A stretch of 64,000 nucleotides of DNA from an uncultured Chitinophagales bacterium. Its GTDB lineage: Bacteria; Bacteroidota; Bacteroidia; Chitinophagales; JAHDHT01. The stretch is from positions 1 to 64,000 of the forward strand of contig CALHDG010000034.1 of assembly GCA_938023075.1 (NCBI GenBank), read 5' to 3'. Positions 30,951-56,762 of this stretch are shown here, piece after piece (position 1 is the stretch's first letter; the number at the start of each line of letters is the position of its first letter). The translations under genes and the position numbers were made by a program. The notes beneath the pieces are model-generated. The model saw only the letters and a program-made list of their open reading frames with translations. It had not been told where the DNA came from and searched no databases.

Positions 30951-32117
30951 TTAGCTAGCCAACCAAGCTAAACCACCGGGCAAATCTATTGTAGCAAAAT
31001 CTAACTGTAATAAATGAACGGATTGGGTTTCAAAAACTTTGCTGAAGGCTTGTAATACTAAAGGTTTTACAATGTGAATATCGCCGCCTTCTAAACTATA
31101 TATTTGAGGATTGATATTTTCAATAATCTGGTTACGCTCCTGTATGTTTAATATTTTTTTATGAGAACCCGGTAAAATTTGAAGTGCACCATTTGTTTCA
31201 TTAGAAGGAGATAAATGTATATAGATAGAAATGGACTGTCTCAACAAATCTATCGGTGCCATTACGCTGGTAATGCCCTCTTTTTTTGACCAACCAGAAA
31301 AACCATCTACCGGCATTTTTTCCTTTACCGGTATCGTAATATTTTGATGTAAGGTAGTAAACCAATTAGCCATCGGTATTTGATGATAATATTTGGAAGA
31401 AGTGAGTATCAACTGATCATCAAAATTGCTTAACAATTGTTGCAAATTTGGATTAAATAGTTTTCGTTCCAATTCAGGCATCGTATTTAAAGAAAAATAG
31501 GTTCCGTTTTCATTGAGGTTTTGATGAGCAAATACCTCCGTTAAGATATTGACTATTTCAGCAACTTCATAATCCATATATATCTTTGGAACAATATGGC
31601 TGCCTTGCTGTTCAAGTATATGTGTATTAATCAGTTTAGTAGGTGGTGGTGTTGTTACAGTAGGTATAAATGGCTTCTCCTCAATCGGTTGTTCATTTTC
31701 AAATCGATTGTTGGTATCTGTTGTTAATATTGATTCCAATTCATCTACCACCTTATCATACAATTCAAAATGATCAAAGTCTTGTAGTTGTTTCATAAAA
31801 TCAACTGCTTCTTTTATCATCCCTTCATCTTGTTTTGATATGGGTTGCTTGGTTATACTGTAATTGGCATCTGCATAAGTATAATACTTTTTTGCGATTA
31901 CCGTAATAGGGGCATGGTAACCCATTACCGGATCGCGCATCAGTTGTAAATCACCTTGCACCGTTCTTTTACTGGCTCCTTTATTGGTTCCTTCAATGTT
32001 ATTGACTGCTACGGAGCACGCCTCAATTAAATCTTCTAAAGTCCAATTACGGCTGCGATCACGCAAACACCGGTCAATTGTTTTGTAGCGAATTAATGCA
32101 ATTTTATTTAAAGGCAT
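30951..32117 (-). CDS. WYL-regulator-type N-terminal HTH fused to a phytanoyl-CoA dioxygenase-like domain
   Basis: N-term LIRYKTIDRCLRDRSRNWTLEDLIEAC...GASKRTVQGDLQLMRDPVMGYHAPI; C-term HQNITIPVKEKMPVDGFSGWSKKEG...IYIHLSPSNETNGALQILPGSHKKI...LPGGLAWL. Confidence 0.8.
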   Translation of the reverse strand: MPLNKIALIRYKTIDRCLRDRSRNWTLEDLIEACSVAVNNIEGTNKGASKRTVQGDLQLMRDPVMGYHAPITVIAKKYYTYADANYSITKQPISKQDEGMIKEAVDFMKQLQDFDHFELYDKVVDELESILTTDTNNRFENEQPIEEKPFIPTVTTPPPTKLINTHILEQQGSHIVPKIYMDYEVAEIVNILTEVFAHQNLNENGTYFSLNTMPELERKLFNPNLQQLLSNFDDQLILTSSKYYHQIPMANWFTTLHQNITIPVKEKMPVDGFSGWSKKEGITSVMAPIDLLRQSISIYIHLSPSNETNGALQILPGSHKKILNIQERNQIIENINPQIYSLEGGDIHIVKPLVLQAFSKVFETQSVHLLQLDFATIDLPGGLAWLAS

Positions 32118-32190
32118 GGACTTGTTTGTTATATTACCATCACAAAAAAATGAAAATTATTTCGACTCCACAAATACTATGCTTTAATTG

Positions 32191-33051
32191 TTAGGATAAA
32201 AAAAATAATGCGCCCAATAAAAGAATACATAGCAAAATCATTAAACCATCAATATAAAACAAATAGAAAAAATTATTTTTAGTTTGAGCAGATTCTATAA
32301 TATAATACGCTGAAATACAATAGGTAAGCGCATAAGCAAATTGTACAGAAAAATTAGTGGTACTATTCATAACCATTATATAAGATAGTATTAAACAAAG
32401 CAAGGCAATAATGATAGCTCCTACAATGCCAAATCGAATAGGTAAGGTTTTAACCCCAACTGAGGCATCATATTGCATGTCTCTAATATCAAATGGAATG
32501 GTAATAGCGATGATGTATGAAAATTTTTCAAAAAAAACGGTTATGTGATTGGTTAGACTGAAAGAATCTTCTGCTTGTATTAAGGGTAAATTTCCACAAA
32601 CCCATGCCCAAGTAAAAGCAATTAAGCCAATTTTTAAATAACCAATATCTCTTAGCCGTTTTTTATGTGTGCTGGTTTTAATAATTGGGATAGAATACAA
32701 TAGCGTTATTAAAGCCAGTAAACACAAACTCAATTGGGTGGCGATTTTCATCTTTAAAAACGTAATGCCTAATAATAATAAACAGACCACAAAAGTGATG
32801 GTTAAAAATTTTAAGTGCTCAATAGTCCATTGAAAAATAACATTGGGGTGTGCAGTATATTGATAATAATAAACCGGAAAAGCCCTATGAAAAATATAAT
32901 TAGATAAGGTTGCTGTAAATATCAAAATAAGTAAAGCCACATCTATCGAATCAATTTGGTAAACAAAATACGTACTCCATGTATAACAGCATGCTGCCGT
33001 TGCAATATTAAGGTTAGAATATGCCCAATTTTTTAAAATGCTCTTGTTCAA
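32191..33051 (-). CDS. UbiA-family prenyltransferase-like membrane protein
   Basis: Multiple TM helices; IPFDIRDMQYDASVGVKTLPIRFG. Confidence 0.7.
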   Translation of the reverse strand: MNKSILKNWAYSNLNIATAACCYTWSTYFVYQIDSIDVALLILIFTATLSNYIFHRAFPVYYYQYTAHPNVIFQWTIEHLKFLTITFVVCLLLLGITFLKMKIATQLSLCLLALITLLYSIPIIKTSTHKKRLRDIGYLKIGLIAFTWAWVCGNLPLIQAEDSFSLTNHITVFFEKFSYIIAITIPFDIRDMQYDASVGVKTLPIRFGIVGAIIIALLCLILSYIMVMNSTTNFSVQFAYALTYCISAYYIIESAQTKNNFFYLFYIDGLMILLCILLLGALFFLS

Positions 33052-52979: not shown

Positions 52980-53348
52980 TTAAAAATAGCTTGAAATGAA
53001 AATCAACCAAGTGCATTAATAACGATCTTTTGACTAATGCCAAAACATCAAGTCACTAAAAACACGGCGAAGTTACGGGAGTTTGCTTGAATTACCAATT
53101 GTGGGGGAACTTGCTTATGAAAGCCATAAAATCCCTCAATTTCATGAGATGGTGAAATAATTTCCAATCCAATATCCATTAAAGGTAGTTTTCGGCTGAT
53201 GAACTGCACCATTAAAATGATGAACCGTTTGAATAACTACAACATATGTGTTATTTTGGGATGGTTAAATTGTGCTAAACGACCATAATGTTAACCATCA
53301 AAGTCCTTTCATAATCGGAAAGACGACCACGAACAAAAACGAAATACC

Positions 53349-54074
53349 GTGAAAATATTTATTTCATACGCCCACGAAGATGAGTACTACAAAGATGAAT
53401 TGCTTAAAAGGCTGAAACCTTTTGAGAGTAAAGGGAAGATTAAATGTTGGCATGATAAATTAATTGATCCTGGAGAAAATAGAATAAATTGTATCATTAA
53501 GGCAATTAACGATTGTGAACTAATCCTGTTTTTAGTTAGTCCTGACTTTTTAAGTTCTGACCATATTGAAAACATAGAAAAAAAGATTGCTCTTGAAAGA
53601 AATAATGAAGGAGAAGTGCGCATTATACCTGTAATTTTGCGGCATTGTACTTTAACTGATTCGGGGTTAAGCAAATTTCAAGCTTTGCCAAAAAATGGAA
53701 AAGTCTTGTCTACATTGGAATCTTTGGACGAGGGATTATTCAATATTGTTGAAGAAATCGCCAAACTTGTCAAAATAAATAATAAAAAAGCTATTGAAAA
53801 AAATCAAAAAATATGGGCATCAGGATTAAGATATGCACTACTTAAGCATCCTATCGCTGTAAAAAATAATGCTACAGCCATATATCAACATTTTGGCTGG
53901 TTAATAGAAATCTTTTTACAAAAAATGAGCACTGATGTTGGCATGGATAAAACGCTTCGTCGACTATCATTTATGGCAGAAGTTTTTCAAAGCAGCATGC
54001 GCTATTTATGCTACATACAAATTGCCCAAATATTAAAAAATAAAAAACAAACAGAAATACTTAACTCCAATTAA
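53349..54074 (+). CDS. TIR-domain protein (GTG start), ends at an in-frame TAA
   Basis: MKIFISYAHEDEYYKDELLKRLKPFESKGKIKCWHDKLIDPGENRINCIIKAINDCELILFLVSPDFLSSDHIENIEKKI...RIIPVILRHC. Confidence 0.9.
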   Translation: MKIFISYAHEDEYYKDELLKRLKPFESKGKIKCWHDKLIDPGENRINCIIKAINDCELILFLVSPDFLSSDHIENIEKKIALERNNEGEVRIIPVILRHCTLTDSGLSKFQALPKNGKVLSTLESLDEGLFNIVEEIAKLVKINNKKAIEKNQKIWASGLRYALLKHPIAVKNNATAIYQHFGWLIEIFLQKMSTDVGMDKTLRRLSFMAEVFQSSMRYLCYIQIAQILKNKKQTEILNSN

Positions 54075-54872
54075 AATTTTTTTGAGTTAAGCAAAACAGA
54101 TTTAGCTGCTTTTAATTGGCTTGATTTTTTGAAGAATAATGATTTAATCAAACGTGATGAAAATTTTGTGTCCGAAATATCCAATCTCGTAAACAAACTC
54201 AAACAACCAGGTAGCGACTTATATCGTTCGGCTTCCTTTTTAAAAGAAAAACGTTTACAACTATTAAATGGCGAACTTCCCGAAGATGAACAATTCAATC
54301 AATTATTAGAAGAATATTTGAAAGAATTGGGTTGTTGGTTAAAAGAAATTAGTTTTTTGGCAAATTACCGTTTAGCATCAATTAAAGGAATCGATCTGGA
54401 CTATTGGCTCGGGTCGGCTAAAAATTTTGTACATACCTATGGTGAATTACACGGTGTTTACAATCAACATAATAGCGAACAAAAAGACTTAATGACTCAA
54501 TCTATTAAGGATGTTTTTACTTACAGTAGAAGTGTGTTGTTCTTTAAAGGTAATAATATTGCTGATTGCTTGAATCAAATTAAAGGTAACACTGAGGATG
54601 AAAATAAGCATTTCCTGTCTTTATCTCCTTTAATTATTGACCATAGTGTACTTGTTGAAAAAGAAGAAACAAAGAAGCAAACTCCAGAGATCTACTATTA
54701 TACTGGTTATGAAAGTAATACCTATCATTTTAGCTATTATAAAAATGAATTAGTTTATAAAACTTGTGGAGAACTCAGTTCAAACAAAAGTATAGTAGTA
54801 AAAAAACAAAATGATAACCTACCTAAATTTGATGAGTTATTTGCCCAATTAGAACAAATTAGAACAAATTAG
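54075..54872 (+). CDS. Helical C-terminal part, same frame as the TIR ORF (continuation after a single stop, or separate ORF from TTG 54129)
   Basis: Frame-0 reading after TAA: NFFELSKTDLAAFNWLDFLKNNDLIKRDENFVSEIS...; no ATG until far inside. Confidence 0.65.
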   Translation, partial: NFFELSKTDLAAFNWLDFLKNNDLIKRDENFVSEISNLVNKLKQPGSDLYRSASFLKEKRLQLLNGELPEDEQFNQLLEEYLKELGCWLKEISFLANYRLASIKGIDLDYWLGSAKNFVHTYGELHGVYNQHNSEQKDLMTQSIKDVFTYSRSVLFFKGNNIADCLNQIKGNTEDENKHFLSLSPLIIDHSVLVEKEETKKQTPEIYYYTGYESNTYHFSYYKNELVYKTCGELSSNKSIVVKKQNDNLPKFDELFAQLEQIRTN

Positions 54873-54881
54873 AACAAATTA
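54847..54881 (+). repeat. 10-bp tandem repeat across the ORF's stop codon
   Basis: (AATTAGAACA)x3 + AATTA. Confidence 0.85.
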
Positions 54882-54905
54882 TACGACCAAATAAAGTAGT
54901 TTACT

Positions 54906-56762
54906 ATGAAAGAACATAGTCCATTTAAGTTTTTAGATGCCTACCAAAAAGACGACTACCAAGTTTTTTTTGGAAGGGAAAAAGAAACCGAAAGATTGTA
55001 TAAGGCTCTTAGCGGAGTAAAACACTTGTTGGTTTATGGACCTTCGGGAGCAGGTAAAACCAGCTTAATTGAATGTGGATTGCGTAATCAATTTTCGGAT
55101 GCTGATTGGTTTGCATTGAGCATAAGGCGGGGTGATAATATTAATGAATCCGTCTTTTCGTGCATCAATGAAGTTTTGGAACAAAAAATAATCCTTGATC
55201 CCGCAAGTCGTCTGCCAGAAGATAAAAGTATAAAGTTTGGACAGGCTATTGAACAGCTTTTTGAAGAACGTTTTCAACCAGTTTATTTATTATTTGATCA
55301 ATTTGAAGAACTGCTCATTTTAGGTAAAGAATCTGAACAAGAATCCTTTTTTAGCAATTTAGAAAAATTGATAAGTTACAAAATTCCGTGTCGAATTTTG
55401 CTTATTATGCGGGAGGAGTTTATTGGACATTTATCTGAATTTGAAAACATTTGCCCTACTATTTTTAAACATCGCTTTCGTTTGGAGAAGATGCGTAAAC
55501 ATAAAGTTGGTGAAGTAATTGAACAAATATTGGAAGCACCTGTATATTCTAGTTTTTATATTATGAAAGATTGTAAAGCTCTTTCGAAAGCTATTCATAG
55601 AAATTTACCTGATGAAAAACATGAAATAGAATTGACACATGTACAAGTCTTTTTGAGTGAGCTTTGGTATTGTGCTAAGAAGGAAACTAAAGACCTTCAA
55701 AAACCGTTATTACATCTTGATTTGGTAAATCAAATTGGTAATTTGAAAGTTATATTGAATAATTTCCTAAAAAAACAATTGCATGCACTAGACAAGAAAT
55801 ATGGAAAAAATAATGCTTTAGAAGTTTTGGAATCTATGATTTCTGAAAAACACACTAAACTGCAAATGAGTGACCTTCTTATTTCCAAAGAATTACATTA
55901 TAAGAAAATAACAGTCGAACTCCCGTATTTATTAAAAGATTTGGAACAATATCGTATAATTCGTTCTAAGAAGGCGGGTGGACAAATTCAATATGAAATT
56001 AGTCACGATCTTTTGGCGCAAGCAGTTGGGCAAAATTTGTCTGAAGAAATGCAATTGCGTAAAAAAGCAGAGGAAGTTTACAAAGTTTATGAAGAAGGAA
56101 AGAGTATGTTTAATCAAGATGATATTGACTACTTGAATCGATTTAAAGAATATAAAGATTATCCAACAACACTAAAAGATAAGATTAGAAGCAGTGAAGT
56201 GTTTTTAAAAAAGAAACAAGATCAAAAATTAGACGAGGCAGAAGAAATAGCAGAAAAAGAACGACAATTGCGGAACAAGGCAGAGTTAAATACTAAAAAA
56301 GCAAAACATAGAACTAATATTGCTTACTTCATTACACTAATTGCTGTATTTACGGCCGCAGCGGCTTTTAATTACTATAGAGAAGCCCAAGAACAATTTA
56401 AGAATGCCGAACAAAAAGAATTAGAAGCATTAGAAGCCAAACATAAAGAAGAACAGGAAAGAAAAAAGTCGGATAGCCTTCTTGTAATTAAAGAAAATAT
56501 ATTAAAAGATTTACAAAATCAAATCATTCTTACAGAAGAAAAAGAAATTGAACGACAAAAAGAAGAAAAAAAGCGTAAAGCTTCAGAAGTTGGTAGAAAA
56601 AATGAAAAAATAGTTCAAAAAATAAATCTTGCCAAGAGTTATATGAATAATGAAGGCTACGACTTAGCTTTAAAAGAGCTAAAAAAATTATTAAAATTAG
56701 CTCCAAATCATGTTGAAGCTATAGAATTAATTCAAAATTGTGAAGATAAACTTAAACGATAA
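54906..56762 (+). CDS. STAND NTPase (nSTAND1-like) with one TM helix and C-terminal coiled coil plus TPR-like region
   Basis: SPFKFLDAYQKDDYQVFFGREKETERL; Walker A GPSGAGKTS; Walker B PVYLLFDQFEEL; ILLIMREEFIG; TM NIAYFITLIAVFTAAAAFNYY; C-term LAKSYMNNEGYDLALKELKKLLKLAPNH. Confidence 0.88.
   Translation: MKEHSPFKFLDAYQKDDYQVFFGREKETERLYKALSGVKHLLVYGPSGAGKTSLIECGLRNQFSDADWFALSIRRGDNINESVFSCINEVLEQKIILDPASRLPEDKSIKFGQAIEQLFEERFQPVYLLFDQFEELLILGKESEQESFFSNLEKLISYKIPCRILLIMREEFIGHLSEFENICPTIFKHRFRLEKMRKHKVGEVIEQILEAPVYSSFYIMKDCKALSKAIHRNLPDEKHEIELTHVQVFLSELWYCAKKETKDLQKPLLHLDLVNQIGNLKVILNNFLKKQLHALDKKYGKNNALEVLESMISEKHTKLQMSDLLISKELHYKKITVELPYLLKDLEQYRIIRSKKAGGQIQYEISHDLLAQAVGQNLSEEMQLRKKAEEVYKVYEEGKSMFNQDDIDYLNRFKEYKDYPTTLKDKIRSSEVFLKKKQDQKLDEAEEIAEKERQLRNKAELNTKKAKHRTNIAYFITLIAVFTAAAAFNYYREAQEQFKNAEQKELEALEAKHKEEQERKKSDSLLVIKENILKDLQNQIILTEEKEIERQKEEKKRKASEVGRKNEKIVQKINLAKSYMNNEGYDLALKELKKLLKLAPNHVEAIELIQNCEDKLKR

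Follow-up and report, generated by a model that had tools for sequence, protein, structure and literature searches.

A Bacteroidota HTH-PhyH fusion protein with a degenerate iron site and its HTH-WYL-WCX-PhyH relatives

The fusion gene and its two halves

The window analyzed here, a stretch of 64,000 nucleotides from an uncultured Chitinophagales bacterium (contig CALHDG010000034.1), carries on its reverse strand an open reading frame with an ATG start and 388 codons that contain no internal stops or frameshifts. The features of this gene and its product are as follows.

30951..32117 (-), HTH-PhyH fusion gene, 388 aa
31698..32117 (-), N-terminal HTH half as in WYL regulators, aa 1-140; WYL proteins of the order, whether fused or not, share 45-57% identity with it
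31935..31973 (-), predicted recognition helix SKRTVQGDLQLMR, aa 49-61 (by alignment; the model has a helix at aa 50-61)
31626..31712 (-), disordered linker, aa 136-164 (by alignment and model; pLDDT <50 for aa 136-158)
30954..31625 (-), PhyH-type double-stranded beta-helix domain, aa 165-388 (Pfam, homologues, AF2, Foldseek)
31341..31349 (-), HQN in place of the HxD iron ligands, aa 257-259 (homologue alignment)
31050..31052 (-), Gln356 in place of the distal iron-ligand His (homologue alignment)
31014..31019 (-), Val367-His368 in place of an Arg-Arg pair that includes the 2OG-binding Arg (homologue alignment)

Comparison of the first 140 residues with the first half of WYL regulators of ~340 aa gave identities of 45-56% (E down to 1e-41), and the recognition helix SKRTVQGDLQLMR was conserved in the alignment with RNA-repair-linked WYL regulators. 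This identity and the conserved helix place an N-terminal HTH of the WYL-regulator type in the protein, as the first-pass annotation had proposed from the window alone. The HTH is more diverged than that of the other degenerate members of the family described below (0.52 identity to intact fusions vs 0.73). The WYL (PF13280) and WCX (PF25583) domains were not detected by Pfam searches even at E<=1, and CARF and sigma54-type AAA+ domains, which are traits of the RtcR family, gave no Pfam matches in the protein. The place that WYL and WCX (~200 aa) occupy in the relatives is taken by the linker, in which a few alignable residues at most could be recognized as a WYL remnant. In agreement with the alignment, the AlphaFold2 model of the whole protein, built with homologues, consists of two ordered parts separated by a disordered stretch (aa 136-158).

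The C-terminal half matches Pfam PhyH (PF05721) with E 5e-5, above the gathering score, and residues ~165-386 align with standalone PhyH proteins of ~240 aa at 28-34% identity (E 1e-32); identity to the PhyH domains fused to WYL reaches 41%. The domain modelled alone was predicted to form a double-stranded beta-helix (pLDDT 92.0, pTM 0.90), and its best PDB matches in Foldseek were all Fe/2OG dioxygenases (E to 7e-11, TM up to 0.72), including TlxI, AviO1, MysH, SnoK and PHYHD1; a phmmer search of the protein against PDB chains returned no matches. The PhyH-like nature claimed earlier for this half is thus borne out by Pfam, homologues, model and structural matches, and the HTH-PhyH architecture supports the further idea of an enzyme fold joined to a transcription factor.

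In the homologue alignment, the metal ligands H257/D259/H356 are represented by H, N and Q, and the R367-R368 pair, the first residue of which is the 2OG-binding position, by V-H; the HQN and distal Gln motifs had been quoted correctly in the first-pass annotation. Profile alignments to solved PhyH-type enzymes gave the same HxD column with MysH and the same distal His and Arg region with human PhyH. Since the first metal His, H257, is retained, the iron site is degenerate rather than erased. Nevertheless, with the 2OG-binding Arg and two of the three iron ligands gone, catalysis is unlikely, and so is the 2OG sensing suggested earlier for this protein; any metal or 2OG sensor, if one exists, would be found among the intact relatives.

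Among the highly conserved PhyH columns, 22/42 survive in the window protein, and the catalytic residues were not lost in excess of the other conserved columns (hypergeometric p 0.27); targeted inactivation is therefore not claimed. The fairest statement is that the active-site region appears to have been under relaxed constraint while the fold was retained. The recognition helix, the hydrophobic core and an NGALxxxPGSH motif are all kept, and the PhyH domain is better conserved than that of other degenerate fusions (identity 0.34 vs 0.28). An open frame of 388 codons together with 22/42 columns, on a very long branch, argues for continuing selection on the fold.

Could the fusion be an artifact of the assembly, which consists of 288 contigs, produced by joining HTH and PhyH genes or by dropping a WYL domain? 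The frame is continuous with a plausible new linker, both halves are diverged from all known copies, and a second PhyH copy of this kind is absent from the genome, so that we regard such an error as extremely improbable.

The HTH-WYL-WCX-PhyH family and the fate of its iron site

Homologue scans and Pfam searches around the window protein revealed a family of Bacteroidota regulators of ~575 aa with the domain order HTH-WYL-WCX-PhyH. In genomes of the same order, open frames of 525-593 aa were found with the same HTH, WYL and WCX domains and a C-terminal PhyH-like domain, and the three-domain fusions of the order number about ten. When the window PhyH domain was used to scan GTDB species genomes, 80 loci were obtained, a list ranked by similarity to the query and not a census, in which 61/80 encode three-domain proteins of ~575 aa; their hosts include Fulvivirgaceae, Hymenobacteraceae, Flavobacteriaceae, Crocinitomicaceae and others. 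In an even sample of the phylum (393 genomes), a full-length fusion was found once besides the window. The fusion family is widespread but patchy in Bacteroidota. In Sporocytophaga (L112, 2875-4606), WYL-WCX and PhyH occupy adjacent separate frames beside RtcB, representing either a split gene or a frameshift.

The first-pass annotation had placed the PhyH domain where a WYL domain is expected. This part of the reading has to be revised: the usual architecture contains both, and WYL-WCX was most likely lost since.

The iron site has very different fates in the two parts of this family. HxD...H and the 2OG Arg are kept in 41/41 non-redundant fusions of the GTDB scan, which include one locus (L168, Saprospiraceae) from the window's order, so that the set lies not strictly outside that order; in the non-redundant set of standalone PhyH proteins, they are kept in 34/36. 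Retention of HxD...H by enzymatically active homologues had been named earlier as an argument against a degenerate sensor; the retention is found, apart from any question of activity. Within the window's order, the site is gone in 9/10 fusions, some of these nine being truncated at contig edges, and is intact only in G498, which lies on the same contig as L168. The states of loss differ among these fusions (HQG/T, HQM/T, HQQ/K, deleted strands and others). Pairwise identities of the HTH, WYL+WCX and PhyH parts are 0.74/0.55/0.54 between intact fusions and 0.79/0.50/0.23 between degenerate ones; in the order's degenerate fusions, PhyH diverges approximately twice as fast as WYL. Iron-site loss accompanies fast change of the PhyH domain alone.

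These data bear on the possibility that the window protein is an active PhyH enzyme that uses the altered ligands HQN/Q, with the HTH as a passenger. The fold and one metal His persist, and a few enzymes of the 2OG-dioxygenase fold operate with an altered triad; against this, the 2OG-binding Arg has been lost along with two of the three metal ligands, and the WYL-fused relatives in the order have lost the site in many different ways. We consider this possibility very improbable.

RNA-repair genes and a shared upstream palindrome

The surroundings of the relatives, invisible from the window alone, provide a second line of evidence on the family. At 36/61 fusion loci, a gene for RtcB, TROVE/Ro60, RlaP or slipin lies divergently within ~3 kb upstream (Pfam RtcB, TROVE, RlaP, Band_7), while no RNA-repair genes were found beside standalone PhyH genes at the 14 such loci of the same GTDB scan. 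Such neighbours are retained by degenerate fusions of the order: TROVE lies beside those of G098, G446 and G122, slipin beside that of G052, and RtcB 5-6 kb upstream of those of G302 and G384. Unfused WYL proteins of the order also adjoin RtcB or TROVE, and in one genus of the order, five genomes have standalone PhyH genes next to RlaP. In five loci (L041, L044, L045, L048, L049), the standalone PhyH and RlaP nucleotidyltransferase genes lie on the same strand, apparently as operons. This pairing is a second link of the PhyH subfamily with RNA repair.

Two further associations were observed. In G384 and G302, a gene for a protein of ~723 aa lies divergent to that of the WYL-PhyH fusion (L175:7213-9381 and L174:6275-8452 (-)), and the L175 copy gave no Pfam match. 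In many Flavobacteriaceae loci (L107-L152), a convergent ABC ATPase gene and a prolyl oligopeptidase-like gene lie just downstream of the fusion.

A palindrome, ACTGCGCA-N7-TGCGTAGT, is common to the sequences upstream of the fusion genes. Its core, CGCA-N7-TGCG, is present in 46/64 upstream regions vs 0.2 expected, with a density of 3.3 per kb upstream vs 0.08 elsewhere in the same loci, and it nearly always lies 38-46 bp ahead of the start codon. Of the matches elsewhere, most fit the complete motif and are situated farther upstream, in the part of the locus occupied by the divergent genes. The palindrome also precedes unfused WYL genes, which were not used in the motif definition, and rtcB in G302, G384 and G052. 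This distribution makes it possible to suggest that the palindrome is the operator of the WYL subfamily, with rtcB in the regulon, and its position ~40 bp upstream of the regulator's own gene would point to autoregulation.

The window gene does not share the divergent RNA-repair neighbours of its family, and there are no RNA-repair genes in the 64-kb window. Two features lie immediately upstream of the fusion gene.

32165..32187 (-), possible decayed operator TTAAAGCATAGTATTTGTGGAGT, which ends 47 bp before the ATG and ranks 46 of 127,956 window positions
32191..33051 (-), neighbouring gene on the same strand as the fusion, with a weak Pfam match to UbiA prenyltransferase

We found no evidence of a functional link between the UbiA-like gene and the fusion. 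An intact operator was found neither in the window nor near the genome's rtcB (contig C84) or its unfused WYL gene (contig C86), and the genome-wide scan gave two core-broken matches, approximately the level of the reversed-pattern control, which were not counted. The sequence TTAAAGCATAGTATTTGTGGAGT, a weak match close to where an operator would be expected, has the best motif score upstream of the fusion gene, and its interpretation as a decayed operator is suggestive only. Palindromes near the gene suggested no other operator.

The only RtcB gene of the window genome is located on contig C84 (L192, 9238-11833) with a release-factor-like gene (PrfH-like, as judged by eye) and a TPR gene, without a WYL gene beside it; the TPR gene also neighbours fusions in Flavobacteriaceae. 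Elsewhere in the window (53331-56759, (+)), genes for a TIR protein, a 265-aa protein and an nSTAND1 NTPase stand in a row and resemble a TIR-STAND conflict or defence cluster.

Origin, probable role and relation to known systems

A key question is whether the window protein descends from a three-domain regulator or arose separately, when an HTH half was joined to a standalone PhyH gene and WYL-WCX never stood between them. The window PhyH domain scores 202 bits with an HMM of fusion PhyH domains vs 153 with one of standalone PhyH proteins, a difference of 49 bits, and between GSHKK and GG it carries the fusion-type segment. Phylogeny was less decisive: the branches of both the PhyH domain and the HTH are very long (divergence >2 changes/site), one free search of the PhyH trees ended 46.6 log units worse than a constrained one, and the careful tree rejects neither placement, the grouping with standalones having AU p 0.47. 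No close relative of the exact window protein was found in our searches. This AU value and a linker almost devoid of WYL residues speak for a separate fusion; in addition to the HMM scores and the segment type, the occurrence of about ten three-domain fusions in the same order and the unlikely repeat coincidence of the same HTH and PhyH subfamilies speak against it, and we hold it to be improbable. Descent from an HTH-WYL-WCX-PhyH protein with the loss of ~200 aa is the simplest account and the most likely one.

A protein that has lost WYL-WCX, the iron site, the operator and its RNA-repair neighbours may also be a decaying paralogue without a regulatory role. Such decay would fit the very long branches of both domains, the absence of the canonical operator from the window genome and the loss of iron-site residues no faster than other conserved columns. 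On the other hand, the 388 codons have stayed open, with no stop or frameshift, at >2 changes per site; the recognition helix, hydrophobic core and NGALxxxPGSH motif are kept; and the PhyH domain is better conserved than in other degenerate fusions. Decay thus appears unlikely, though it carries appreciable weight.

We moderately favour a derived regulator in which the PhyH fold serves as a non-catalytic ligand-binding or dimerization module. Against this reading stand the missing intact operator and RNA-repair neighbours, the more diverged HTH, the insecure tree placement and the absence of excess loss at the iron site, which would also fit a general relaxation. Its ancestor would have been a one-component regulator of Bacteroidota with the HTH-WYL-WCX-PhyH architecture, the Fe/2OG site of which is intact in most relatives. 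In the window's order, the iron site would have been lost repeatedly with HTH and WYL still constrained, and in the window lineage WYL-WCX would afterwards have been deleted and the gene moved out of the RNA-repair neighbourhood. The product would be an HTH with a conserved recognition helix, a flexible linker and a non-catalytic PhyH fold, and it most likely still binds DNA. Because WYL and WCX are missing, the protein must either act on DNA as a monomer or dimerize by other means, for which the PhyH fold is the chief candidate left; it may supply this function, which is that of WCX in PafBC, and/or bind a small ligand. The old pocket could possibly accommodate another ligand.

For the intact relatives, analogy offers a lead. 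PhyH-family enzymes demethylate 2'-O-methyl nucleosides (PMC12709175), and broken tRNAs induce the RNA-repair operon of Salmonella (PMC7790460); taken together, these findings make a response to an RNA-derived signal a reasonable guess. A bolder and doubtful extension is that WYL-PhyH proteins are Fe/2OG-dependent sensors of RNA damage, in which WYL would bind RNA-derived ligands and PhyH would bind or oxidatively remove a mark (e.g., 2'-O-methyl, carried by a nucleoside or an RNA end), thereby controlling an RtcB/Ro60/RlaP regulon via ACTGCGCA-N7-TGCGTAGT; in Chitinophagales, the site would have decayed to a pseudo-enzyme sensor, which alone would have taken over sensing in the window organism.

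The RNA-repair loci of the relatives hold a WYL regulator, not RtcR, and an oxygenase-fused regulator with a predicted operator and regulon provides a handle on the signal that induces RNA repair in Bacteroidota. Moreover, the series from an intact site through a lost site to a lost WYL domain offers a view of an enzyme domain becoming a non-catalytic regulatory part. Taken singly, WYL regulators, PhyH folds and RNA-repair neighbourhoods are known kinds; their combination, the predicted operator and the graded iron-site loss appear to be new. None of the searchable papers joins WYL and phytanoyl-CoA dioxygenase, and priority is not claimed; a dioxygenase is likewise absent from the main texts of two WYL surveys (PMC6789036, PMC4012209).

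With WYL factors of the HTH-WYL-WCX type (PafBC class A), the window protein shares the N-terminal HTH half, and its relatives share WYL and WCX as well; the window protein lacks both domains, and its family adds a C-terminal PhyH. WCX domains hold PafB and PafC together (PMC6789036), and nucleic acids or nucleotides are the proposed signals of WYL regulators (PMC6789036, PMC4012209). With the PhyH family (PF05721; PHYHD1 and the FJS 2'-O-methyl-nucleoside demethylases), the fold and several motifs are common and the intact relatives keep HxD...H and the Arg, whereas the window domain lacks the D, the distal H and the Arg and is joined to a DNA-binding module. RtcR, which binds tRNA halves, is an activator built on CARF and AAA+ domains (PMC7790460). 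The relatives resemble RtcR and its rsr-yrlBA-rtcBA operon at the system level, in that a divergent one-component regulator lies beside RtcB and a Ro60 protein, but the sensor parts are not homologous. RlaP/RtcB RNA-repair neighbourhoods were reportedly described by Burroughs and Aravind in 2016 (gkw722, cited in PMC7824862), and the same genes, for RtcB, RlaP, TROVE and Band-7 proteins, also adjoin the fusions.
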